A DNA stretch of 64,000 nt, from positions 95,942,674 through 96,006,673 of the forward strand of contig CANTUZ010000003.1 in the NCBI GenBank assembly GCA_947846985.1. Reading direction: 5' to 3'. Both the position numbers and the translations under genes were made by a program. The DNA comes from Fratercula arctica (taxonomy: Eukaryota > Chordata > Aves > Charadriiformes > Alcidae). The first letter of the stretch is position 1. Each line of letters opens with the position of its first letter. This document shows, one piece after another, positions 6,439 through 57,005 of this stretch. A model generated the notes under the pieces. The model was not told the DNA's origin. It ran no database searches and was given only the letters and a program-made list of their open reading frames with translations.

Positions 6439-6727
6439 CTCAGGGTTTGCATGCCCTACCTTGTGACGCACAGATTTACTGGGGAATTGAAGGAGGCAAA
6501 CTAAGTAGCATGCGGCCCCTATTAGTACCAGGCTAATGAAGTGCGTGGCAATGCTGAAGCAGCACTGTCCTGTTCAGATCAGTATCCTAACCATGGTCCT
6601 GTGGACTGGGAAGGAGAGTTTATTGTCTTCAATTATTTCTCCTCCAAAGCTCAAATGTAATTCAAGTTCTGTCCTGTTCAGAACAAGCATCTGTGAAACT
6701 TGCTGGCAAAACTCGCTGGCAAAACCC

Positions 6728-7848
6728 ATATGACATCCTCGCCTCCAAGCTGATGAAATATGGGTTTGATGGACTGACAATTCAGGGGATAAAGAACTGG
6801 CTTGACGGCCGCACCCAAAGAGTGGCTGTCAATGGGTCCATGTCCAAGTGGAGGCCAGTGACAAGTGGAGTCCCTCAAGGATCAGTATTGGGACTGGTCT
6901 TGTTTAACATCTTTGTCAGCAACATGGACAGTGGCATAGAGTGCACCCTCAGCAAGTTTGCCGACGACACCAAGCTGTGTGGGGTGGCTGACACGCTGGA
7001 GGGAAGGGATGCCATCCAGAGGGACCTTGACAGGCTGGAGAGGTGGGCCCATGCCAACTTCATGAAGTTCAACAAGACCAAGTACAAGGTCCTCCATCTG
7101 GGTTGGGGCAATCCCAAGCACCGATATAGGCTGGGCAGTGACTGGCTTGAGAGCAGCCCTGAAGAAAAGGACTTGGGGGTGCTGGTAGACGAGAGGCTCA
7201 ACACGAGCCATCAGTGTGCACTAGCAGCCCAGAAAGCCAATCATATCCTGGGCTGCATCAGGAGAAGCGTGGCCGGCAGGTCGAGGGAGGTGATTCTCCC
7301 CCTCTACTCCACCTTCGTGAGACCCCACCTGGAGTACTGCGTCCAATTCTGGAGCCCCTACTACAAGAGAGATATGGACGTGCTGGAACGTGTCCAGAGA
7401 AGGGTCAAAAGGATGATCAGAGGGCTGGAGCACCTCTCCTATGAGGACAGACTGACAGAGTTGGGGTTATTCAGCCTGGAGAAGAGAAGGCTCTGAGGAG
7501 ACCTTATAGTGGCCTACCGGTATCTTAAGGGGGCCTACAAGAAAGCTGGTGAGGGACTTTTTAGGATGTTGGGTAATGGTAGGACTAGAGGGAATGGATT
7601 AGAACTAGAGATGGGTCGATTCAGACTGGATGTTAGGAAGAAGTTCTTCACCATGAGGGTGGTGAGACACTGGAACAGGTTGCCCAGAGAGGTGGCGGAA
7701 GCCCCATTCCTGGAAGTTTTTAAGGCCAGGCTGGATGGGGCTCTGATCAACCTGATCTAGTGGGAGATGTCCCTGCCCATGGCACAGGGGTTGGAATTAG
7801 ATGATCTTTAAGGTCCCTTCCAACCCTAACAATTCTATGATTCTATAA
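6728..7848 (+). mobile_element. CR1 LINE, 5'-truncated, with C-terminal half of ORF2
   Basis: It opens mid-ORF2 at [14 protein letters not shown] and carries [16 protein letters not shown] and the reverse-transcriptase FADD box, then the conserved CR1 C-terminal blocks ([35 protein letters not shown]). It ends with TTAGATGATCTTTAAGGTCC and the short ATTCTATG tail. A TGA at 7494-7496 breaks an otherwise long frame; the motif-A half of the RT is missing. Dead copy, relatively young. Confidence 0.95.
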
Positions 7849-15900: not shown

Positions 15901-17625
15901 ATACGTTAATAAGTTGTCAATTTTTTTTTTTTTTTGAGGGGGTGGGCTGGTTTTAAACTACTTACCAAAACCTGAATGCCTTCTTTTTCCACCGGAGCAG
16001 TGTCATAAGTAGCTTCACACACTCTTACCACTGTGGTAACGCCGTATTTCTTAAGTTCCTAGGGAATGAAAAAAAACCACCTGCTTTAGGAGTAAACTTA
16101 TTTCACTTACCATTTAATTTTCTCAATAGGTTAGTTTATTAACTGACTCCAAAATTTTCAGTAAACTCATCCAAACGTTTGCCACCTCCTGTGAAACACA
16201 GAAAGCTGAAATAACTGAAAACCTGTGTGCTAATGCCAGACACTTTTACGCTCTCCTCCAAATATATTTGAAGATTAAGTTTTGCTATGATGGATCAAAC
16301 TTTTTTTTTCTTTTAAAAACAGATCCAGATAAATATTGGCAAAATAAGTAGTCCATTTCCAAAAGATCATTCCTTTTAAAGGAACAGGAAGTTTCCCAGT
16401 TTACAAAGCTACACACTTCACTAAAAGCGTTCTAAGTGAGGTTTAGACCTTCCCCTTCCCTCCCTCTACTTAGAACAACAGGTTTCTAAGACCTTTTACT
16501 GTTAAGAATTATGAGCACAGGACAATAAATTATTCTAGTTCCTGAGTTAGCATAACCAGAGAACAATAAAATTTAACTTTCTGTTTTGCTATTACCCTTC
16601 ATTTAATAAAAAAAAAAAGCAATCGTTCTTCATTCTCCCTGCAACAACCCATCATTCACACTGTCACAGTAATGCTGAAGCAAAGCCTAACCATACTTTA
16701 TCTAATTGTAAGAGTATAAAGGCAAGCAAATGTTATCTCACTACGTTTATTGTAAATTATTGCACACTGAATGCAAAACAGAGGTATAACATACCTAAAA
16801 TATTGCTAATGAGAGCTCACATTACAAACTCAGACCTTACCAGGATGTAACTTTGGAGGAACCCATTGTTAGCACCTGGCTTTGCTCAGTAAACAATTTC
16901 AGCATGTACCAAAACACTTAAAGTAGCTTCAGCAGGTCTGGATGCAGAGCAAGCCTACTACCACAAATTTCACTCAAGTAGGCACTCTTGACACCCAGAG
17001 GATTCTCTTCAAAGCTACACTAGAGCCACAATCTGCTAATACTGAACGGAGACAGGCAGTGAAAGCATATTGCAATCCATTTATTTGTTCCCAAGGTTCT
17101 GATCCACAATGTGTCGTGAGTTATTCTCTTTTTAATCACTATGCAGTAAGTGCAAGGAAATGTTACATCACTTTAGATAAATCTAAATGCAAGTTCCTAC
17201 CACTAGCAGATCTTTGTATTGTTCTATACATAACTCTGCCAGATAATTCCTGTTTTCAGACCTAAACAATGTACTTAATGTACTAATAGTATAATTATTT
17301 CTTTGCTTCACTTTCAGAAGTATGTTTTTGTGAAGGACAAAGTATTCTGAATAGATTTGTCTGTTTGTATATTGACTTTTTTCAAAGACCTGCAGTCTCA
17401 GTACCTCTTCATATGGCTTCCACAGCTGTTATCAACTAGTAAAGAAGGAAATTGTTAATATAGCATGCTATTCAGGCATTTAAAAGAAATATATCAGTAA
17501 GAATTCTGTCCTGGCCTTACCTCTATAAATTTGTTTAAGGTTGCATTGGTTGGATTGTGTGTGATTAGGAATCTCATGTTCTTGTAGGTGATTTCCACAG
17601 GAGCTGGGCGGTTCATTCGGGCCAT
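12788..17625 (-). CDS. PTP4A1: PTP4A1 (PRL-1) protein tyrosine phosphatase, complete 5-exon coding region
   Basis: The coding exons are 17625-17521, 16058-15966, 15635-15505, 14039-13965 and 12905-12788. They sum to 522 nt: 173 codons plus TAA, the exact vertebrate PRL length. The protein starts [19 protein letters not shown]. Visible features are Cys49 (redox partner in the family), the WPFDDG loop with Asp72 as general acid, the P-loop HCVAGLGR with nucleophile Cys104 and Arg110, Ala111 where most PTPs have Ser/Thr (a PRL hallmark), a basic stretch starting KRRGAF at 136, and the C-terminal CCIQ farnesylation box at 170-173. From the family: a prenylated dual-specificity phosphatase of plasma membrane and endosomes that binds CNNM magnesium transporters and promotes growth. 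All introns are GT-AG and no frame damage is seen. PTP4A2 and PTP4A3 differ at many positions; the match to PTP4A1 is essentially complete by eye. Confidence 0.97.
13848..13870. repeat. Poly(T) run, 23 nt
   Basis: An uninterrupted T tract on the plus strand (A tract in the transcript) inside the last PTP4A1 intron, about 95 bp beyond the donor at 13964. Confidence 0.9.
13965..14039 (-). CDS. PTP4A1: PTP4A1 coding exon, residues 110-135
   Basis: This 75-nt exon completes Arg110 and continues [20 protein letters not shown], ending two bases into the Gln135 codon before donor GTAAGT. The acceptor is ACCAG, preceded by an unusually long T-rich pyrimidine tract (minus-strand reading of 14041-14095). 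Confidence 0.96.
15505..15635 (-). CDS. PTP4A1: PTP4A1 coding exon with WPFDD loop and P-loop, residues 67-110
   Basis: This 131-nt exon follows acceptor TCTAG and ends two bases into the Arg110 codon before donor GTGGGT. It carries the general-acid loop WPFDDG (Asp72) and the catalytic motif VHCVAGLGR (Cys104; the last Arg codon is completed in the next exon). The intron towards the promoter (15636-15965) is only 330 bp, the shortest in the gene. Confidence 0.96.
15966..16058 (-). CDS. PTP4A1: PTP4A1 coding exon, residues 36-66
   Basis: This 93-nt exon is in phase 0 on both sides. It starts [20 protein letters not shown] after the acceptor CCTAG and ends with Leu66 before donor GTAAG. It contains Cys49, which in PRLs can form a regulatory disulfide with the catalytic cysteine. 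Intron 16059-17520 separates it from the start exon. Confidence 0.96.
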
Positions 17626-18072
17626 ATTGATTTAGTTAAACATGCAACAAGATTATGAAAGGATTCAAAAAAAATTTTTAATACAGAAGTGATGTAGAGA
17701 AACTGAAGTCTACTTCACTATACTCCACGTGAAATTCTCAGTGCTTGGAAGAATGAAGTTGGGAGCAATGGGAAATGAAATGAACCTCCTAACAAGAAGC
17801 AGCAATTCTTCAATCCAGTAATACTGAGGCAAAAGAAAGGCAGTGCACTGAGGTTTACCCCATCCAGGTCTGAATTCTGTTGTTAAATGCTCTGCCAATT
17901 TCAATTCAATACTTCTTATCCTGGTCAACCACTCTTAAGGGGGCTTCTTGGTGGAGTAGTAATGAATTTCTACAGTTCACTTGTCTGCATAGAGGTCGTG
18001 CTGTGCCTGGCAGTAGTCTCCACTGCCCTTCAGAAACTCCATAAATGTGTGACCAAGAACACCACAGAACTG
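17521..18072 (-). CDS. PTP4A1: PTP4A1 exon 2: 447 nt of 5'UTR plus codons 1-35
   Basis: The start ATG is at 17625-17623 with A at -3 and G at +4, a strong initiation context. Coding runs to 17521 (ends at Glu35, phase 0), followed by donor GTAAGG. The upstream edge is set by a textbook acceptor: a pyrimidine tract at about 18100-18075 ending in CTCTCTCTACAG, with the exon starting CAGTTCTGTGG at 18072. The 447-nt leader carries several short upstream ORFs. The coding part is certain; the acceptor at 18073-18074 is inferred from splice-signal quality. Confidence 0.88.
17632..17643 (-). promoter_or_regulatory. Minimal upstream ORF just before the PTP4A1 start
   Basis: An ATG at 17643 is followed by two codons and TAA, ending 6 nt before the phosphatase ATG. 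An even shorter one (ATG, one codon, TAA) is at 17863-17855. Such start-stop elements close to a main start can tune reinitiation. Evidence is position only. Confidence 0.3.
17970..17990 (-). promoter_or_regulatory. Short upstream ORF (MQTSEL) overlapping the main uORF
   Basis: The ATG at 17990 lies inside the end of the main uORF in another frame and stops at TAG (17972-17970) after six codons. It would intercept scanning ribosomes that skip the main uORF starts. It is visible as a reading frame only; use is unknown. Confidence 0.35.
17977..18072 (-). promoter_or_regulatory. PTP4A1: uORF exon-2 segment (31 codons plus stop)
   Basis: Entering from exon 1 in phase 0, the frame reads [10 protein letters not shown] and then [20 protein letters not shown], ending with Lys and TGA at 17979-17977. 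Initiation at the internal ATG (18042-18040) would give 21 residues; the spliced form gives 44. Translation of this frame would be expected to lower initiation at the phosphatase ATG 351 nt downstream. A conserved, magnesium-sensitive uORF has been reported for mammalian PRL-1/PRL-2 mRNAs (recalled from the literature); equating it with this one is inference. Confidence 0.65.
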
Positions 18073-21000
18073 CTGTAGAGAGAGGGGGGGAGAAAAAAAA
18101 AGCATAATGAGCACAGGTGAAGCAAAGTCATTTTGAAGACACCAAGCATTATAAAATGAAAAAATAAACCCAAGACAACTAAGCAGTTTCATGAGGTTTA
18201 TATTTTAATCCAAGAATGAAGTTTGCGTAAAGAACCCCGCTACCTTTCTCAGCAAGGATTACTTGAACTGTATTTTCCATTCTGAATTCAGAGGCATCAC
18301 AACACATTAACTGAAGTTACATTGATCTTCATTAGTCCCATGAAGGCAAGGATGAGATTCCTTGAATAGTCAAGCTTAGCATCAGACAATTTCTAGTGTT
18401 TAAACAAAACTATCAGTTTCTACATAGATGCAGTATCACTTGTCTTAAAGGCTAAAGACTTACTTCACATGTAAGCATCATTAATTCAAATACAGAACAG
18501 CCAGTAGAAAAGAATGTACCTGTCCCAAATAGGAAGCCTTGAAAGCAAATGCAAAGTCTTTGTGGCCTAACGAAACAATGTGAGCTTTTGAACATATTTT
18601 GAGACTTCCAAGGCACACAGATTTCTAACTAAGCAACATTTCACATATTAAAGGCTGAAGACACACGGCAACCTCCATCTGCTTTTAATTGCCTTTTTAC
18701 ACAAATGACTTTATTAATATAGCAAGATAGTGGCAATAGTCTAGCTGAAAACACACACAAGCAAGTTTATTGAGCAGGTTATTCCTGCCCAGTGGTGTGC
18801 TATTTTGCTATGGTTAAATTTACATACAAAATTACTGCAAGACGTACAATCAGGAAGCAGATAGCTGATGAGCTGCTCTAAGTTGTGTATTCATTTGCAG
18901 ACGTTGCTGTGCAAATGAACTAAGAATATATACTTTTATGCACTCTAGAACCTTACACCAGAGGAGTTAGTTTTGTGCCCAGCTGCAGTACCAGTGCTGC
19001 TGACGATAGCTGCCTAGGCAACAGAAGGGAAGAGAGAAGTTTTGTTTCCCAAAAGATACGTACAAGCTGAACCAAATGCCCGCTAAATATACTTAGGTAT
19101 TAGAGAGCAACACAGTCGATCGTACAACTATTTAGCAGGAAAAAAATTACTTGTATTGGCCAGTCAACTTCAAATGCTGGAAGGAGTCCATGTGTTTCTA
19201 TGCCCAAACAAAATGTTGCCCAAGACGCTTTGGAAATAGATTAGCTGAACATGCGGTGTGTGCTACAGAATTGCTACCACAGACTTACTTTCTTAAATAC
19301 GTGATTATTTTTTTTATTATTCCCCCCACCCGGGACACAGTACTATCAGTTCTTTGCCTTCATAAATCTAGTTTCTAGCAAACAGAAGCTGTAACTCCAT
19401 CGTAGCATTGTTCAGACCTTTTTTTAAACTACAAACCAGCTCTATGCATCCATCCACACATATAATCAGAGCAAGTGTACATGAGAAAATAAGGAAGAGA
19501 GACAGTATTTCAGTGCTCTATGTTCAAATCTTACCATTCAAAGGGCTATGAAAGAAGCAGCCTGTGCTGAAAAGGTTCCCAACCTTAAGAAAGCCAATTC
19601 AAAAGATTAGGTCCTAAAGATGACTGTACAGTAAGTCCTGATAATAGCCAGGATCTTAATACACTTTACCAAAGGGCAGGAAGAAAAAGCTACATGCAAA
19701 GAAGCTGTGGTTGCTAACTGCTATCTAGGATGTAGAGTCAGTCCAAGACTCCATTGCAGGCACTAAACCATACAGCATAAGACTACAGTGGATCTACCTA
19801 ACAACTATTAGTGTTAAACAGAAGTCACAACAGATCAATAGTCTTGACAATTGTTGAGTTTTCTAAGAGGTACAGAATCATGGAGTAGTTTAGGTTGGAA
19901 GGGGCCCTTAAAGGTCACCTAGTCATCTTAGCAGTACAGGAGTTCTTACAGTGAACTACAATTTAAAGAACTGCAACAATGTTTTCTGTTGCACACATGG
20001 CTTTGCTCCATTAATAAGTCCAGAGAAGAGGAATTTCAGTAACACAGCAGTAGTAATAGAGAAGACAAAAATCATTAAGAGACTGGACTGTAGTAGCAGA
20101 TGGGTAGAGCTGCATCACATGGTGTCACAAAGGACCTTTAGAAAAAGCAGACCAAACACCTCCAGCCATCATTTTCATGTTTTCAGACAGCTTCCTGGTA
20201 GAAGTTTTGTTTTAAGGATGCACCTTCATCACAGGCATGGATTGCAAAAAAAAGATAAACCAAACCCGAAAAAAACAACCAACAAACCTGATAACAAATA
20301 TGAGAAAGAAGTTAGCAGAAAGCAACTAATAGGACAATTTCACATGCACTTTGCTTCCACTCCAGAGATACTACCATCACCATTCCTCTAAAAACTGTAG
20401 CATTAAGTTTGCCAGTTACTTGCAAAAAAACCTATTTCTATTTTTATTTGTGATAGCTTGATGGACAGTGAGAGCTTGAAATATAATAGGCATGAAAAAG
20501 GAGTAAGAAGGATCTTCTGAAGTCAAAGGCCAACTGAGTAACACGAACCAGGAGAATTCGGACTCGGAAGAACTCCAAGAGTCGTCATCTGACACATCAG
20601 CCATGCCCTAGCAGAGGAAGGTAGGTATGCATTAAAAAGACTCCTAGGACCAGACCTAGAGAATACCTAAAATAGCAACTGAAAAAAAGAACCGAAGATA
20701 GCTTATTTAAAGTCACTTTCAATTAGTTTAAGAAGCAGAACAGCAAAAAGGGACAGAACAGCTTTAAGCAGATACAGCTGCACATGGTCTTGTGCCACTT
20801 TCCACATGCACTGTTAGATCTCATGTTTATCTCTTCTTAAGGCTGCTAAGAGGAATCATAGACAGTCCTTTTCCCTGGTAGAGGATGAGGGAGTGGAGGC
20901 TGTCAGAAACAGAAATAGAAAAGCATGCAAGTGAGCTTGAGGAGATAAAATGGGGTCACCAGGGTAAAGAAAAGATGTTTCAATTGGCAAGATGGAGATT

Positions 21001-24000
21001 TTTGGGGAGAAAAAAAAATGTAGAGTAATTGGAAACAGTTAACATGACCCATTACTGAGGCAGGTAGGAAGTAAGAGGTAATCAGGATTCGTCCAGCCTA
21101 GAAGGCAGGCTGGCCTCAGTATGCAGCTAAGAGTATTCAATATGATACCAGAGAAACTCATTGTTAGGGTAAGGAGGAGGGCAGGCAGCAAAGCATTAGT
21201 TAAGTAATAAATCCTACTTTTTCAATGCAGATTGAACTGTGCACCCCAGTTTCTAGATATCGTCAACAAATTCACATACAAAGTTGAAGCAAGTACATTA
21301 CACAATGTTACGTCTGACTTCTATGTGTAATTAACCCCTACAAATGAGTTCCTTTTGTTAATACTGACTTAACAGTTACCAATGAGACACATCACCACCT
21401 TACTAATTCACACAGCTAAGGACCTAACCAAGCATGTACTCGAGTCTCAGTCTTCGCCTTGGCAACTGCTGCTGCCACATTACAAAGAAGCAAAGCTCAC
21501 ATTTTCCTTTGATGTGAATGCCATCACTTCGCACCACTGCTAGCCAGAAAGCTCCAGGTGCAGACCAACTCGTTAAGGCAGCAACACACTGTACTATCCT
21601 AAGACAACTTTGCCAACCTAGTTTAGTTCTGGTCCAGGAGCCAAAAGAAAATTAAAGACAAGCAGTACATTGGCATGCTGTTTGTGTTCTGGCATTAAGC
21701 CAGAGTACAACACTGCACCCATCTTCACCAAAAAGACCTGGAAGATAAGAAAACAGCTACAAAGAGAGTGTTGTAGTAATTAAGACCACCTCAGGCTTGG
21801 GGGGAACTCAAATGACATGAGCAACTTTTGAGAGGCTTGGAAATACAGTTTTCAAATTTTTATATTGTCTCAGACAGTTAGCTACTTGGTAGGTAAACTA
21901 TCAAAAAAGTCAAGATAGTGTATGAAAGCCCAAGGCTGCTAAGTGAAACTCAAATGCATAGTATTGTATGCAGAAATTTCTATATCAGAATGACATCAGC
22001 TCATAATTCGTACCATCAGGTTGGGTACTCCAGCATATTCTTTTTAATTTACATGTGAATTTTCCTGGAGGAAAATTAACACTGAAGGGTTTTGGAAACA
22101 GAAGCAGCTGTTTCTATCAGTAACAGAAAGCCAAACAACATTTAGACCATTAGGTCTATCAAAATAAACTTGGAAAACAAATATAACGTTAATGTGCCAG
22201 GACAATCTATTAAGAGAAGGTATCCTGTCCAATATGGGACAAAGTAATCATGATTGTACCATCTACTATCATTTACGCTAGGAGAAGTTAGAGAATAGTT
22301 TATTCAAGCAAGAAAAAGACATCTTGAAAAGAAAAGCTTTAATTTATGCCCTTCTTTGGGACAGGAAGCTAAAGTATTTGTCTTCACTGACGAAGAGATT
22401 CACGTCTTTTAATTCTGGGTTTGAAACAATCAGTCATGTGTGGCAAAAACTGCTTATGAAAGTAATCTATTAAATCGTTACTGGTATGTGGAAAGCAGAG
22501 AGGTGTAAGGTTATCCCATGCTGCTGACATTCTTGTTCACAACTTGGTAGCATCTTGAGAAGCATGCAAACAAAAGCCCTTGTTTACACAGTTACTTGAC
22601 ACTTCGGTCTACCTTCAGAAGATATGCAAGATGATTCACAGTTGCTCAATCCACCTGCTCCTAGACCAGAAACATTTATACTCAGAACCAAATACGTGGT
22701 ATCACATTCTCTGAAGTCAAGACCTGCCACATGCTCGCCTACTGAAACCACAGGATCAAAACTAGAAAGCTAAAATAAATTACATTTCTTCACGATTTGA
22801 GAACACCTGCAAGTAAGTTCGCTGTTCTAACTTGCTGCCTGACAAAAACGTTTCTGAAGGACAGAGGCACAAATACCCCCGACTTTCTCTTACTACTCAA
22901 GGCCCAAGTAGCAACTGCTAAGGCAGACAAGGAGGAATGGGAGGGTAAGGGGTACAAACTGTGGAGCCATCACGCAAAGTAGAGGCACACTTTCATTAGG
23001 TATTGTTAACAAGATGCACCTCATATCAACTGGGTACACGAATGCCAGTATTATGATATCCACAGTGACACCACCACCCATTTTGGACCAGAGAAAGTGA
23101 CCCATGGCCTAAGAAAACGTGCTCATTATCACAGATGGGAGATTCCAAAGGTTTCTCATAAGTTTGTTGCAACATGCTCTGTGAAGGAAGGATGTTTCTT
23201 GTGCTTCAAGTATGCAGTTTAGGTGGAAGAAAAAATTATCTCAAAACTTCCTGTATAACAAGTCAATGCAACTTCCAGAGATGATGAAACTGAAGCCATG
23301 TGACTGTGTTCCTAGTTCTGCTTGAACCATGAAAAAAAAAAATAAAACCCATGCAAAGAAGCTTGAACAGATATTGGGGAAAATACATCAGAGAAACCAT
23401 TCCATGCCCTTGTCTAATGCATCCTCTTGAGTTTCTGAAAGCAAGGAGTCTCAAATTGACATAACACTGTCACTTCAACAGCAAACTACGTAAATCCTGT
23501 TACCTTACTCAAAAGTTATTCCATTATGTTTTAAGCAATAACATGAGAAATTTAGCATATACATGCAAAGACAGTTATTGCTTTATTTTGTTGAGTCTAG
23601 TAAGGTACGAGTGCCAAACAAGAAGCTGTGCCTGTGAAGAAAGCTGTAAGGAATTATAGAGTTACATTTAACACAGAAGCACCTTTTGCATTCATCTGAT
23701 GGAGTGAGTTTTAATTTTTTAAATAAGGTGACAATCTGCTAGTAGTTTAGAATTCAGTAATACCCTTGATCTGGGCGTTCTGGTTAATCTTTAAGAGAAG
23801 AAGTGATCACTTACAGTCAGCCTACACACTGGGATAGAGCCAGCATTCTTACGTGGCATGTATTCTGTCAGAACAGGAAGGTTTCACAAGATAGAAGTTA
23901 TTAGATAAGGCTAAATTCTACTTATTTACTGCCTTACTGACACATTTAGTTTCGGTAAGACAGTGACATCCTTCTCCCTTGGCTCCTGCTATATCTGTCA

Positions 24001-24779
24001 CTCATTTTCCTTTCTCATTCTCATGTTTCCTCCCATGGCTGTGCAATTTTTGTATTGCTTTTTCCACATTTTCCCCCGACACGATTCTGTTCCTGCAAGA
24101 CAATTTGAAAACCCTTTGCTGCTCCATCAATGGAACAATAAGAGCTGACATTTAAGTGTCAGCTTCAGGTTTTTTGATTTGACAGTTTTATGAGATTACA
24201 AGGAGACGGGGCTCATACTTCTGAGTCACTGCTTTGGAAAGACTCTGCAGATGCAGGCAGACATATTGGAAAGTTGTCTCCAGCAGCAATAAGAAACACC
24301 AGAATCACAGGACCCTCATGCCCTTTTTTCAGCTCATAATATTTGCAATGCGTGTAGCTGGCTACCAGACAGCAACCAAGACCTGCGCATAACTTCTACT
24401 AATTCTGCTTCTACTACCAAAAATTACTTAATTTTGATAGTGCTTTGTGTTTCTTGCTTCCCTGCTTTTGGGGGTCGTACTACTACCAGCAAGCCTTGCA
24501 TTGTTTATGCTTAAATACACACTTTTGCTCTGTGGGCACAGATGTGAGGCAGCACAGACACTGAGATTACCAGGGGAGTTAAAAAATAATAAATTTACAA
24601 GCATATAAGGAAAGCAAAAACTTCTGATGCTGAGCTGTGATCCACCTCCAGAAGGAAATGCCTTCCTTGAAAAGCCAGATGGCAAGCTCTTAAAAGCAGG
24701 TTCCGTCAAAATTTAGGTATTTAACTAGATTTGTGAGGTTCTGAGGGACAACAGCATCCGCTTCAACGTGGACTTAGAT
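18073..24779 (-). other. PTP4A1: PTP4A1 intron 1 (interior)
   Basis: This AT-rich intron extends to 25911 inside the CpG island. Apart from a short CR1 tail (19871-19925) and a small acidic ORF (20604-20416) I see no gene or large repeat in it. Regulatory elements are possible but none is identifiable by eye. Confidence 0.7.
19871..19925 (-). mobile_element. CR1 3'-tail fragment in PTP4A1 intron 1
   Basis: The plus strand reads ACAGAATCATGGAGTAG then TAGGTTGGAAGGGGCCC and GGTCACCTAGT, the antisense CR1 end. About 55 bp is recognisable. Confidence 0.82.
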
Positions 24780-25911
24780 GACTCCTCTGCAGACTTCCCC
24801 CTCCTCCCCCCGCCCCGGGGAGCCATCTCGCAGCCCAGCCGGCACAAGGCTGGCTCCGTACGGAGTCCCGGCATACCCCACCTCCACTGCACAGAGCTCA
24901 TTTGGGAAAGGACTCACGTCCCTCGCTCCCCGCCCGAGAAAAAGAAGCCGCCGCTCGGCCGCCTTCGCCCTCGCCCCGGCGGCGGCCGCGCACGTGGGGC
25001 CGCGGCGGATGGGGAGGGGGGGGCGAGCTGCGGCCCCGCTCCCCGCCGCGCCACCTGGCCGGCGGGCGCCCACGGGCAAGCCCCGGCTTGCCCGGGAAGC
25101 TCCGGGCTCCCACCGCCGCTTCAGCCGCGGGGGCGCCGGGCCCCCCGGCCTGTCTCTCCCCGACGAGGAGACGCTGCCCCGGCCGTGACACCGCCCTGCG
25201 GCCCGAGCCGTCGCCCCGGCTGCGGCGGTCACGGGTTCGCATCACGCTTCGATCAGGCTCCCGACGCGGAGCCATCTTGTCCCCCGGAGCCGCCGCCCGG
25301 CCCCGGCCTCCCCTTCCCGGCAGGGGGCTCCCGGACCCCGCCGCCTCCGCGCCACCGGCCTGACGCGGCCCAGGCGCGCTGGAGCCCCGGCTGCAGGGGC
25401 GCTGCCCTTCCCGGCGGCCGCCCGGCCCGGCAGACGCCACCAGACAGACATCGGCGGGGGGAGGCCGGGCCGGCGGGCGGGGCCGGCGGCAGCCAGGCTC
25501 ACAAAGCGGCTTTGTGCCCGGGGCCGGGCGGCTGGGGAGTCGCGGAGATATCGCCCCCTCCTCCTCTCCCGGCAGAGCAGGGGAGAGGGGGACCGGCAGG
25601 AGGAGAGGGGCGGCGGGGGCGGCAGGAAGGCCGAGCCACCCCGCAGCCGGGCTGGCTCGGTTCTCCTGCCGCCCGCCCAAGAGGAGCCGCAGGCCGGCGC
25701 TGCGAGAAGCCGCCCGGAGCCGGCGTGGCCCGGGCGATAGAACAAAGAGACAACATGGAGGAGACGCGGGGGGGTGGGGGGGGGGAGGAAGGGGGGGTAG
25801 GAGAGGCGCGGGAGCCGGGCACAGGCGGGCAGCCGGCAGGGCGCGGGGCGAGGGGCCGGGGGAGGCGGTCGGGGCGGGGAGGAGGGGGTGTCGCGGTCGG
25901 TCGGCACTCAC

Positions 25912-25950
25912 AGGAATATGGTTACTCATTGAAGACTGTAGCCTGATCAT
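25912..25950 (-). promoter_or_regulatory. PTP4A1: uORF exon-1 segment (13 codons)
   Basis: The ATG at 25950-25948 opens MIRLQSSMSNHIP, whose last codon ends exactly at the donor at 25912 (phase 0). A second in-frame ATG is at 25928. The context at the first ATG is weak (T at -3, A at +4), which would allow leaky scanning to the phosphatase start. It continues in exon 2 at 18072. Confidence 0.6.
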
Positions 25951-26135
25951 ACAGCCGGGGTGCGGGCGCCACCGCCGGGGGCAGGAGGAGCAGAACCAGG
26001 AGGAGGCGGAGGCGCTGGAGGCCGCGGAGCTGCCGGCGGGGGTTCGGCGGCGGAGCGGGGATGGACCATACAGCTGCGGCAGCGGGCGGCTCTGCGGGCT
26101 AGCGCGGAGCGGACGCGGCTGCACCAGGAGGGATA
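25912..26135 (-). other. PTP4A1: Probable PTP4A1 exon 1 (5'UTR) in the CpG island
   Basis: On the minus strand a strong donor, ATTCCT|GTGAGT, lies at 25912/25911. Unlike the flanking GC-rich DNA, the 40 bases before it have ordinary composition, as if constrained. The ORF there (from ATG at 25950) continues in frame into exon 2 after splicing. The upstream limit is a guess: an inverted CCAAT box (26216-26220) and a CRE-like element (26188-26195) suggest initiation at about 26100-26150. Another possible first-exon donor (GAC|GTGAGT) is at 24918/24917. Confidence 0.6.
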
Positions 26136-26800
26136 CTCGGGCACCGCCTCCCGCACAAGCGCCCCCGGGGCCCGCCCTTCGCTCACTACACGTCAGCGAC
26201 GAGCGTCGCGCCAGCCCAATCGGAGGCGCCGCTCGCGCGTCCGGGGCGGGAGCGAGGCGGCCGTTTGGCGGAGGGGGCGTGGCGGCGGCAGGGCCGGGCG
26301 GAGGCGGGAGGGAGGCGAGAGGCGGAGGCAGCCGGCGAGAACCGGTTCGTGAATGAAGCGGGTGGCGGCGGGGCCGGGGAGGGGCGCGGCGCGGCGGGGG
26401 CAGAGGGGGACGCGCGGGGATCGCCTCCGGGGGCCGGGCAGGGCCCGCCCTGCGCGGGAGTCACACCCCCAGCCTTCCCCAACACCCGCCGGGGCTTCGC
26501 CGGGAAGCGCCTGGCGCGGCCTCTGGTTCCCTTGAGCCGACGGGTTCGAGACTCTTCCCCGCGCCACCCTCCTCCGGTGCCGCTGCGGCCCTCCCTCTTC
26601 TCCCCGGCGTGAGGGGGAAGTCCGCGAGGGCAGGGAGCGGGGGGGTGAGGTGGGAGAGCCGGTCCCCGTGATGGCAGGTGGAGGCCGGGTGGTGGGTCGC
26701 GGCCCTTCGCGGAGGCCGAGGCTGAACGGCGGTGGGACAGCGGCGGCCCCACGTGGCTTGTCGTCCCTGAGTCCCCTCGCTGCCCGGCTGCGAAACCTCT

Positions 26801-28140
26801 TTTTTTGAGAGTTTAATGCGAGCTGGAAGCTGTCGGCAGCAGTTTTATCCGCAGATTATTCTGGGCTTTCCGAGATAAAAGTGATGATTTCTGGTTTTAC
26901 AGATGGGGAGATCCGGTAGGCCAGAAGCGGTGTGAGAACCAATATGGACTCTCCCAGCCTTGTCCTGCCTCTCTCCCGCTCCCAGGAAGCGCTGTCTCCC
27001 GAAGCACGGGCGTTCCTGGAAGGCGGACGTCTCCCGGGTGAGCCCCGGCGGTGGGAGACACCCGTGGTGTCACTGCCCTGCGTGGCAGGCGTGGGAGTCA
27101 GTCCCCAGCCGGACACTGCCAGCCCGGAAGAACGCCTTAATATGGGTCAGCGCTGGCTTTATGAAATGACAGGCTATTTTTAGCTTCAGTTAGCCTGGTA
27201 CCGTTCTCGTTACGTCTAACTAGTTAAGCCTTTCTTCTGCGTGTTACGTTATTGTTATTATGCAGACTACAAGAGCACGCAGAAGTTGGTTTTGGTCTAA
27301 GAAATGAACAACTCGGCTCTAATTCTTTGTCCAGAGGCATGGCTGTTTTTTGTGATTTTGCCCAAATTTTCTATTTTTGTTTAACCTGCAGAAACCATGG
27401 TTTGTACAGAGGAAGTTTTTGTGGTAACCGACGCGTGAGAGAGGGATGTGTTACTCAGAACATGTCTGTATTACCTTTCACTCTGCCTGGCTTCAGGTGG
27501 GCATAAGCTATTTTCTGACCAGCAGCCGTGTCTTTGCTAGGATAATATACTCAGCTTTTCTGGGCTATAAGTACACCTGGGCTGTATTTATTTACATTTG
27601 CATTTTGTATTTGCTGACTGACTCAGGGCACACGTCTGGTGAACTTGCAGCTATTTCAACTTCTCCACGTATAACTTCCTGAAAATGTGCTCAGAACCCT
27701 AGAAAATAAGATAGACGTCCCCAAGCCTAATGGCTGCTTATAATATTGTTTATTGTTGGTGGTTACAACGTTACGAAGGTTCTGGGGGGAAAAAAGAGAA
27801 AAAATCAACACAGCTTCTCTCATTGGTGAAGCTTGAGGAATTTGCTCTGGATAGAGTTCTGAGTCAGATTAAACAGCTCTTTACCTGCTTTAATCCATGC
27901 TGGTGTTTTGTTGTTGTTTTTTTTTCCTCCAACAGTGAAAACTTTTGTTTACTGTTTCATTACACATTAAACTGATCAGGTTTTTAGGATCAAATTGCTT
28001 TCCGCTGTAACATTCTCTTGGTACTGTCTAACAGTAGTTTACACTGGAAATAAGAGCTGCCAGTGGTTAGTTTGAAATTATATATCCTAAGAAGAAAGGA
28101 TTTAGTTCAGAAAGCTTTTAGTCTAAAAACATGTGGGGTT
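26801..28140. other. Shore of the CpG island, no gene recognised
   Basis: GC content falls over 26800-27150, then AT-rich sequence follows. A plus-strand GTGAGC donor-like site at about 27037 and another GGTGAG near 26644 could serve a divergent non-coding transcript, but nothing else supports one. Confidence 0.45.
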
Positions 28141-55336: not shown

Positions 55337-57005
55337 GAACATCCCCAGGGTGTTCAGCCTCCAGACCTGGAAGATAAGGATGGAGGGCAGAACAACCCAT
55401 CCATAATCCAGGAGGAAGTAGTCAATGATCTGCTTCTGCACCTAGACACACATAAGTCTATGCGGCCAGATGGAATTCACCCAAGAGTACTCAGGGAGCT
55501 GGCGGGAGAGCTCACCAAGCCTCTCTCCATCATTTATCAACAATCTTGGTCAACAGCGGAGGTACCAGATGACTGGAGGGTGGCTAATGTGATGCCCATC
55601 TACAAGAAGGGTCGGAAGGAGGATCCAGGGAACTACAGGCCTGTCAGCCTGACCTTGATACCAGGAAAAATCATGGAGAGGATCATCTTGAGTGAGCTCT
55701 CACGGCGGGTGCAGGGCAGCTAAGGGATCAGGGCCAGCCAGCATGGGTTTAGGAAAGGGAGGTCCTGCTTAACCAGCCTGATCTCTTTCTATGACCACGT
55801 GACCCGCCTTCTGGACGTGGGGAAGGCCGTGGACGTTGTCTATCTGGACTTTGGTAAGGCCTTTGACACCATCCCCCACAGCATTCTCCTGGAGAAGCTG
55901 GAGAATCATGGCATAGACAAGTGTACTCTCTGCTGGGTTAAAAACTGGCTGGATGGCCATGCCCAGAGAGTTGTGATTAATGGGGTGAAATCCTCTTGGC
56001 AGCCGGTCACCAGCAGTGTCCATCAGGGCTCAGTTTTGGGACCAGTTTTATTCAATATCTTTATCAATGATCTGGATGAGGGGATTGAGTGCAGTAAGTT
56101 TGCAGATGACACCAAACTAGGCGGGACTGTTGATCTGCTTGAGGGTAGGAAGGTTCTACAGAGGGACCTGGACAGGCTGGATCGATGGGCCAAGGCCAAC
56201 TGTATGAGGTTTAACAAGGCCAAGTGCTGGGTCCTGCATTTTGGTCACAACAACCCCAAGCAACGCTACAGGCTTGGGGAAGAGTGGCTGGAAAGCTGCC
56301 CAGCAGAAAAGGACCTGGGGGTGCTGGTGGATGGCCAGCTTAACATGAGCCAGCAGTGTGCCCAGGTGGCCAAGAAGACCAACAGCATTCTGGCTTGTAT
56401 CAGGAATAGCGTGGCCAGCAGGAGTAGGGGAGTGATCGTGCCTCTGTACTCGGCACTGGCGAGGCCTCACCTCGAGTGCTGTGTTCAGTTCTGGGCCCCT
56501 CTGTACAAGAGGGACACTGAAGTGCTGGATGGTGTCCAGAGGAGAGCTACCAAGCTGGTGAGGGGTCTGGAGACCAAGCCATGTGAGGAGAGGCTGAGGG
56601 AACTGGGCACGTTTAGTTTGGAGAAGAGGAGGCTGAGGGGAGACCTCATTGCCCTCTACAACTACCTGAAAGGAGGTTGTAGAGAGGTGGGTGTTGGCCT
56701 CTTCTCCCAAGTGAATAATGACAGGACCAGAGGAAATGGTCTGAAGTTGCGGCAGGGGAGGTTTAGATTAGATATTAGGAAGCATTCCTTTACTGAAAGA
56801 GTGGTCAGGCCCTGGCACAGCCTGCCCAGGGAGGTGGTTGAGTCACCATCCCTAGAGGTATTTAAGAAACGTCTAGATTGGGCACTTCAGGGCATGCTCT
56901 AGTGACAGAGATTGTAGGGTTTGGGGTTTTTTTGTGTGTGTATGGTTGGACTCGATGATCTCAAAGGTCCTTTCCAGCCATGAAGATTCTATGATTCTAT
57001 GATTC
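55337..57005 (+). mobile_element. Inner CR1 LINE with near-open reverse transcriptase frame
   Basis: A longer CR1 inserted in the outer one. One frame (about 55340-56902) runs through [45 protein letters not shown], the RT motif-A region [11 protein letters not shown] (catalytic Asp kept), [17 protein letters not shown], the FADD catalytic box (56099-56110) and the C-terminal [14 protein letters not shown]. The only in-frame break is TAA at 55721-55723. It ends with GGACTCGATGATCTCAAAGG and the ATTCTATG tail. The endonuclease domain is absent (5' truncation), so it is not autonomous. Confidence 0.93.

Follow-up and report, generated by a model that had tools for sequence, protein, structure and literature searches.

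PRL phosphatases govern the handling of magnesium and have been linked to cancer. In the mRNA of AMD1 (S-adenosylmethionine decarboxylase), the peptide of an upstream open reading frame (uORF) exerts control in cis, through nascent-peptide arrest. For PTP4A1 (PRL-1), the third uORF of the human mRNA (NM_003463) is reported to be conserved in mouse, rat, chicken, frog, and fish (PMC3914846), and the mRNA is reported to resist arsenite, with a leader that lowers reporter translation about sevenfold and a uORF start chosen from ribosome profiles (PMC4383229). The human PTP4A1 uORF has also served as a positive control among conserved-peptide uORFs (CPuORFs), a frameshifted version raising reporter expression (PMC7530721), and a review states that magnesium depletion raises PRL-1/2 translation and that a rearranged uORF coding sequence abolishes the response (PMC11855589). 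The same review describes the uORFs of TRPM7, a magnesium-handling gene, as likewise magnesium-responsive; these are presented as competing with the main open reading frame (ORF), and the passage on them mentions no peptide-sequence effect. Here we analyse a 64,000-nucleotide (nt) stretch of the Fratercula arctica genome (contig CANTUZ010000003.1, positions 95,942,674 to 96,006,673; hereafter the window), which carries PTP4A1 on its minus strand and, in the PTP4A1 leader, a 44-codon uORF split between two exons. This split uORF is the bird copy of the known PTP4A1 CPuORF; its sequence, frame, gene identity, and peptide conservation are observed directly, and it probably works in the bird as in human, as a cis-acting, magnesium-responsive CPuORF that represses PTP4A1.

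The sequence-only reading of the window had proposed a 44-codon uORF split in phase by an intron, and every element of that proposal is re-found in the sequence. Specifically, codons 1-13 (MIRLQSSMSNHIP; 25912..25950, minus strand) run from the ATG at 25950 to the exon end at 25912, exactly at a GTGAGT donor (25906..25911) that is unique on the minus strand within 25500-26600; N-termini of homologous proteins map to the same segment. The frame enters exon 2 at 18072, at an acceptor (TACAG/CAG) preceded by a long pyrimidine tract, and stays open for 31 codons (14-44) to a TGA at 17979-17977, such that the exon 2 part, assigned from sequence, frame, and homology, occupies 17977..18072 on the minus strand. 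The first AUG ORF after the uORF is PTP4A1 itself: its first coding exon (17521..17625, minus strand; 34 of 35 residues identical to PDB 1xm2) lies 351 nt past the uORF stop and is followed by four more coding pieces at 16058-12794. Exon 1 offers two candidate uORF starts, M1 (25950) and M8 (25929); judged by eye, both AUGs sit in poor context, unlike the PTP4A1 AUG with its A at -3 and G at +4. An earlier 40-codon AUG ORF in exon 1 (25947..26069, minus strand), relevant if transcription begins upstream of 26069, closes with a TGA sharing bases with the uORF ATG (ATGA), which could be an arrangement for stop and restart. The surroundings of exon 1 are rich in G+C (0.78 and 0.72 in the two 1-kb steps of 25001-27000, as compared with 0.33-0.53 in the remaining steps of the window) and resemble a CpG-island promoter region.

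The length of the uORF is no evidence for it. When a 676-nt model leader with an assumed start at 26140 was shuffled 1000 times by dinucleotides, each exon separately, a closed AUG ORF of at least 44 codons appeared 631 times, and ORF length was therefore ruled out as an argument; that the uORF stands beyond chance rests on homology. In a first protein search, which returned 34 proteins, the best match of the uORF peptide has 98% identity over 44 residues (E 9e-23), and homologues in wheatear and rodents have 93-98% identity. In particular, a wheatear protein (P0001; a cluster of 19 sequences named "uncharacterized LOC128125822 homolog") is identical at 43 of 44 residues, and a gerbil-named cluster (P0002) is 95% identical. 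The bird uORF has L4 and N10 where the rodent models have P4 and R10. Human LOC128125822, the human PTP4A1 CPuORF, is listed together with PTP4A1 and PHF3 in a single 6q12 deletion (PMC10635364), and it agrees with the bird uORF in gene, position, and peptide, with no essential difference found. The wheatear match, the PTP4A1 gene context, and the published human uORF together bear out the earlier identification of the element as the conserved uORF of PRL mRNAs.

The bird copy is thus not new; it is an ordinary version of an element that has been published and is present in public annotation. Our analysis adds a tandem acceptor, a concentration of constraint in codons 14-38, and a mollusc core that is joined to PRL in one snail model. 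Further searches gave little: solved structures contain no relative of the uORF peptide (two matches, E near 1), Pfam gives no match to it up to E 10, and Rfam gives no match in the window at gathering scores. A degenerate GDYCQAQH pattern has no match in viral_contigs and three in genome_contigs, all in bacteria-named records and taken as chance. Five uORF peptide strings do not occur in the literature full text searched, and one of six DNA strings does, in PMC12221301.

Annotated homologous gene models, read as predictions, support the junction between 25912 and 18072. We compared 82 N-terminal pieces of database proteins with the window by tblastn (E up to 0.02): 33 match inside 25900-26150, three more (P0082, P0089, P0094) match longer stretches ending at 25912, four match elsewhere (two of them in the intron directly before the acceptor), and 42 have no match. 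The crane model P0089 matches 26169-25912 with 91% identity and continues with QFCGVL in exon 2. Public bird gene models therefore already use the uORF junction, as the wheatear (P0001) and crane (P0089) models indicate.

The exon 2 acceptor is a tandem NAGNAG site (TACAGCAG; 18070..18077, minus strand), and Q14 can therefore be kept or dropped in frame, giving 44- or 43-amino-acid (aa) forms. Of the 108 fetched proteins, 51 fit a sequence pattern written to span the exon join; Q14 is present in 32 of them and absent from 19. Several of the 19 are retrocopy-like and two are mollusc-like; the gene models among them include alligator X3 (P0006), camel PTP4A1 isoform X3 (P0102), Hyla sarda isoform X2 (P0103), Eleutherodactylus coqui X2 (P0104), and lamprey (P0054). 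Two Engystomops proteins outside the 51 (P0028 and P0032) differ from one another at Q14 and in their start.

Conservation is concentrated in the first 25 codons of exon 2. By inspection, 71 of the 108 proteins were sorted into 35 vertebrate or vertebrate-like models (with both exon parts), 17 putative retrocopies (a label that is inferred), 13 mollusc-like proteins, and 6 members of an unplaced family, and the other 37 (intron read-throughs, proteins with other first exons, and fragments) were excluded from the counts. Across the 35 vertebrate models, whose alignment rows are not independent, cells identical to the window number 343 of 438 in codons 1-13, 854 of 871 in codons 14-38 (17998..18072, minus strand; the core, which mollusc proteins share with the window), and 173 of 204 in codons 39-44. 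The corresponding counts in the 17 putative retrocopies, which may serve as a rough yardstick of weaker constraint, are 133 of 198, 331 of 397, and 67 of 90. Human and window differ once over a 19-nt stretch, our only foreign nucleotide comparison, and the difference is synonymous. The pipeline of PMC7530721, which as described retains only uORFs with a ratio of nonsynonymous to synonymous substitution rates (Ka/Ks) below 0.5, calls the human PTP4A1 uORF a CPuORF. The suggestion made from the letters alone, that the peptide may be under coding selection, is accordingly upheld at the protein level by the core counts and by the published Ka/Ks-filtered call.

Two observations concern the same database proteins. 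The uORF frame is open for 13 more codons past the TGA (17976-17935, minus strand), and a related stretch occurs in 10 of the 108 database proteins, in some of which W or G takes the place of the stop; fish-like matches such as P0030 and P0084 have no such stretch. Read-through, a gene predictor reading TGA as W, and plain conservation of the leader are all possible explanations of this relatedness. Seven proteins (P0013, P0048, P0049, P0051, P0053, P0107, and P0108, with camel and ground squirrel included) share AF[MV]EFLK[GS]P, corresponding to T22A and S30P, and are perhaps one old mammalian family of PTP4A1 retrocopies.

The core extends to molluscs. Two profile searches, returning 75 and 98 proteins, reach scallop (P0060), argonaut (P0062), sea slug (P0097), apple snail (P0092), and nine similar proteins. 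Most of the mollusc-like cores fit a pattern containing F.GE[LF], and they are identical to the window core in 248 of 324 cells (13 proteins). Beyond QAQH, six of the 13 have a single residue, one has two residues, three have five or six, and three, including apple snail, run on. In the apple-snail model, the core passes into a PRL catalytic domain (PTP4A2 of PDB, E 2e-64; Pfam DSPc); the model looks like a prediction that skips the first coding exon and, taken as predicted, links the uORF peptide with a non-vertebrate PRL gene. The start of the model (MRRNIL/FCG) aligns with bird M8, a six-residue match that is weak: the proportion of letter shuffles reaching the start-match score is 5 to 15% for MRRNIL, 0.8 to 2.5% for MSRFIL (P0106), and 0.8 to 24% for MCRNIL (P0060), the ranges varying with the vertebrate form compared. 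PMC7530721 includes a Lophotrochozoa category, and the mollusc occurrence may already be listed in its supplements; we claim no priority for it. Six further proteins (P0065, P0067-P0071) share a stretch starting with TFM[ED] and a conserved tail ending near LDFPPP; these are not counted as members and are possibly the uORF of another lineage.

These observations suggest how repression might operate. Scanning ribosomes would translate the uORF from M1 or M8, and the growing peptide, chiefly codons 14-38, would slow or halt the ribosome from inside the exit tunnel, leaving few ribosomes to arrive at the PTP4A1 start, which lies 351 nt downstream. The block would be relieved when magnesium is low, and stress acting on eIF2 would let the PTP4A1 main ORF escape the general shut-down. 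AMD1-type arrest uORFs and the PTP4A1 uORF have in common cis control by the uORF peptide, but the PTP4A1 uORF differs in that six codons separate its best-conserved part from the vertebrate stop. Conservation is strongest up to H38, and several mollusc-like proteins stop almost there; for these reasons we locate the critical step at QAQH (codons 35-38) or directly after it, instead of at the stop codon, and a stall in elongation thus appears likelier than a stall in termination.

Three points weigh against this placement and against the conservation behind it. Candidates were picked by shared five-residue words, which favours the core in the hits; the tail is itself conserved in the vertebrate models, with A42 unchanged in 34 of 34 and D43 in 32 of 34, so that an end of constraint at H38 is less convincing; and at least five residues follow QAQH in 6 of the 13 mollusc-like proteins. 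A wider proposal, which we put forward tentatively and hold to be somewhat less probable than its opposite, would make the PRL uORF an ancient nascent-peptide sensor of Bilateria. Under this proposal, the exon-split, phase-0 design would predate the split of molluscs and vertebrates, and the core would end at QAQH and halt the ribosome there in elongation; vertebrates would have added the tail, the N-terminus (M1-S7), and the optional NAGNAG glutamine, and many molluscs would stop one to two codons later.

If the uORF acted only through competition for the start site and poor reinitiation, as an ordinary leaky-scanning uORF, the sequence of its peptide would be irrelevant to control. The poor context of the uORF AUGs fits this explanation, as does the report that the PTP4A1 leader behaves like other eIF2-resistant leaders (PMC4383229). 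However, human uORF frameshift mutants are reported to be derepressed (PMC7530721), rearrangement of the coding sequence is reported to abolish the magnesium response (PMC11855589), and the amino-acid core is kept from molluscs to birds; we consider an effect of start-site competition alone improbable. We give a similarly low probability to the uORF yielding a stable microprotein that works in trans, with control of PTP4A1 secondary. The very strong conservation, the separate NCBI protein annotation (LOC128125822), and the retention of A42 and D43 in the tail would suit such a product, but the peptide has no Pfam or PDB relative and its N-termini differ widely among models. AlphaFold2, run with an alignment of 20 database homologues, predicts a single low-confidence helix (mean predicted local distance difference test score (pLDDT) 65; predicted template modelling score (pTM) 0.29), and we rejected a folded microprotein on this prediction, weak evidence as it is. 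That conservation concerns the DNA or RNA of the leader (as promoter, for splicing, or as RNA structure), with an incidental frame, is very improbable: Ptp4a1 is among the leaders with reported IRES-like (internal ribosome entry site-like) activity and internal transcription starts (PMC9456764), the frame past the uORF stop is related in 10 of 108 database proteins, and the ORF length is unremarkable, but vertebrates and molluscs share an amino-acid core, the sole human-bird difference in 19 nt is synonymous, and the human uORF passed the published Ka/Ks filter (PMC7530721).

The sequence-only reading further suggested that splicing or promoter choice could switch the uORF between the 44-aa form and a 21-aa form made from exon 2 only. 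This suggestion is not supported. The internal 21-codon ORF (17977..18042, minus strand; identified by frame) starts at M24 (ATG at 18042) and lacks H21, T22, and F23, residues that all 13 mollusc-like proteins share with the window, as 12 of the 13 do G20; the 21-aa product is therefore unlikely to be a functional unit. Moreover, the exon 2 part is found in frame behind other N-termini in Caretta (P0016), alligator X1 (P0022), and Heteronotia X3 (P0027), and likewise in the frogs Ranitomeya variabilis X2 (P0018), Pelodytes (P0024), and Engystomops (P0028 and P0032), where P0032 keeps the exon 2 frame without Q14. These differing N-termini would represent alternative first exons, as we infer from the gene models; the turtle, alligator X1, gecko, and frog N-termini have no counterpart in the window by tblastn at E up to 0.02, a search that short pieces could escape.

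In human, an internal start falls at a different position. The human leader of ENST00000626021 was cloned with a forward primer (PMC12221301) that matches the window at 18020-18002, inside codon 31, and this transcript, provided that its 5′ end is correctly placed, would therefore lack the uORF start. For Ptp4a1 (of mouse, to judge by the context), about one third of the transcripts are reported to begin within the leader (PMC9456764). Promoter choice may thus matter for whether the uORF is present or absent, and not for whether it is long or short.

In the PTP4A1 uORF, vertebrates have a leader peptide for which a response to an ion is reported. Constraint up to QAQH names the codons to mutate first, and the persistence of the core in molluscs makes snail or scallop genes distant test cases for the sensing mechanism.

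Elsewhere in the window, two plus-strand ORFs match the reverse-transcriptase family RVT_1 of Pfam, at 6693-7496 (E 2e-12) and at 55799-56902 (E 8e-19). We take both to be probable fragments of CR1-type LINE (long interspersed nuclear element) repeats.

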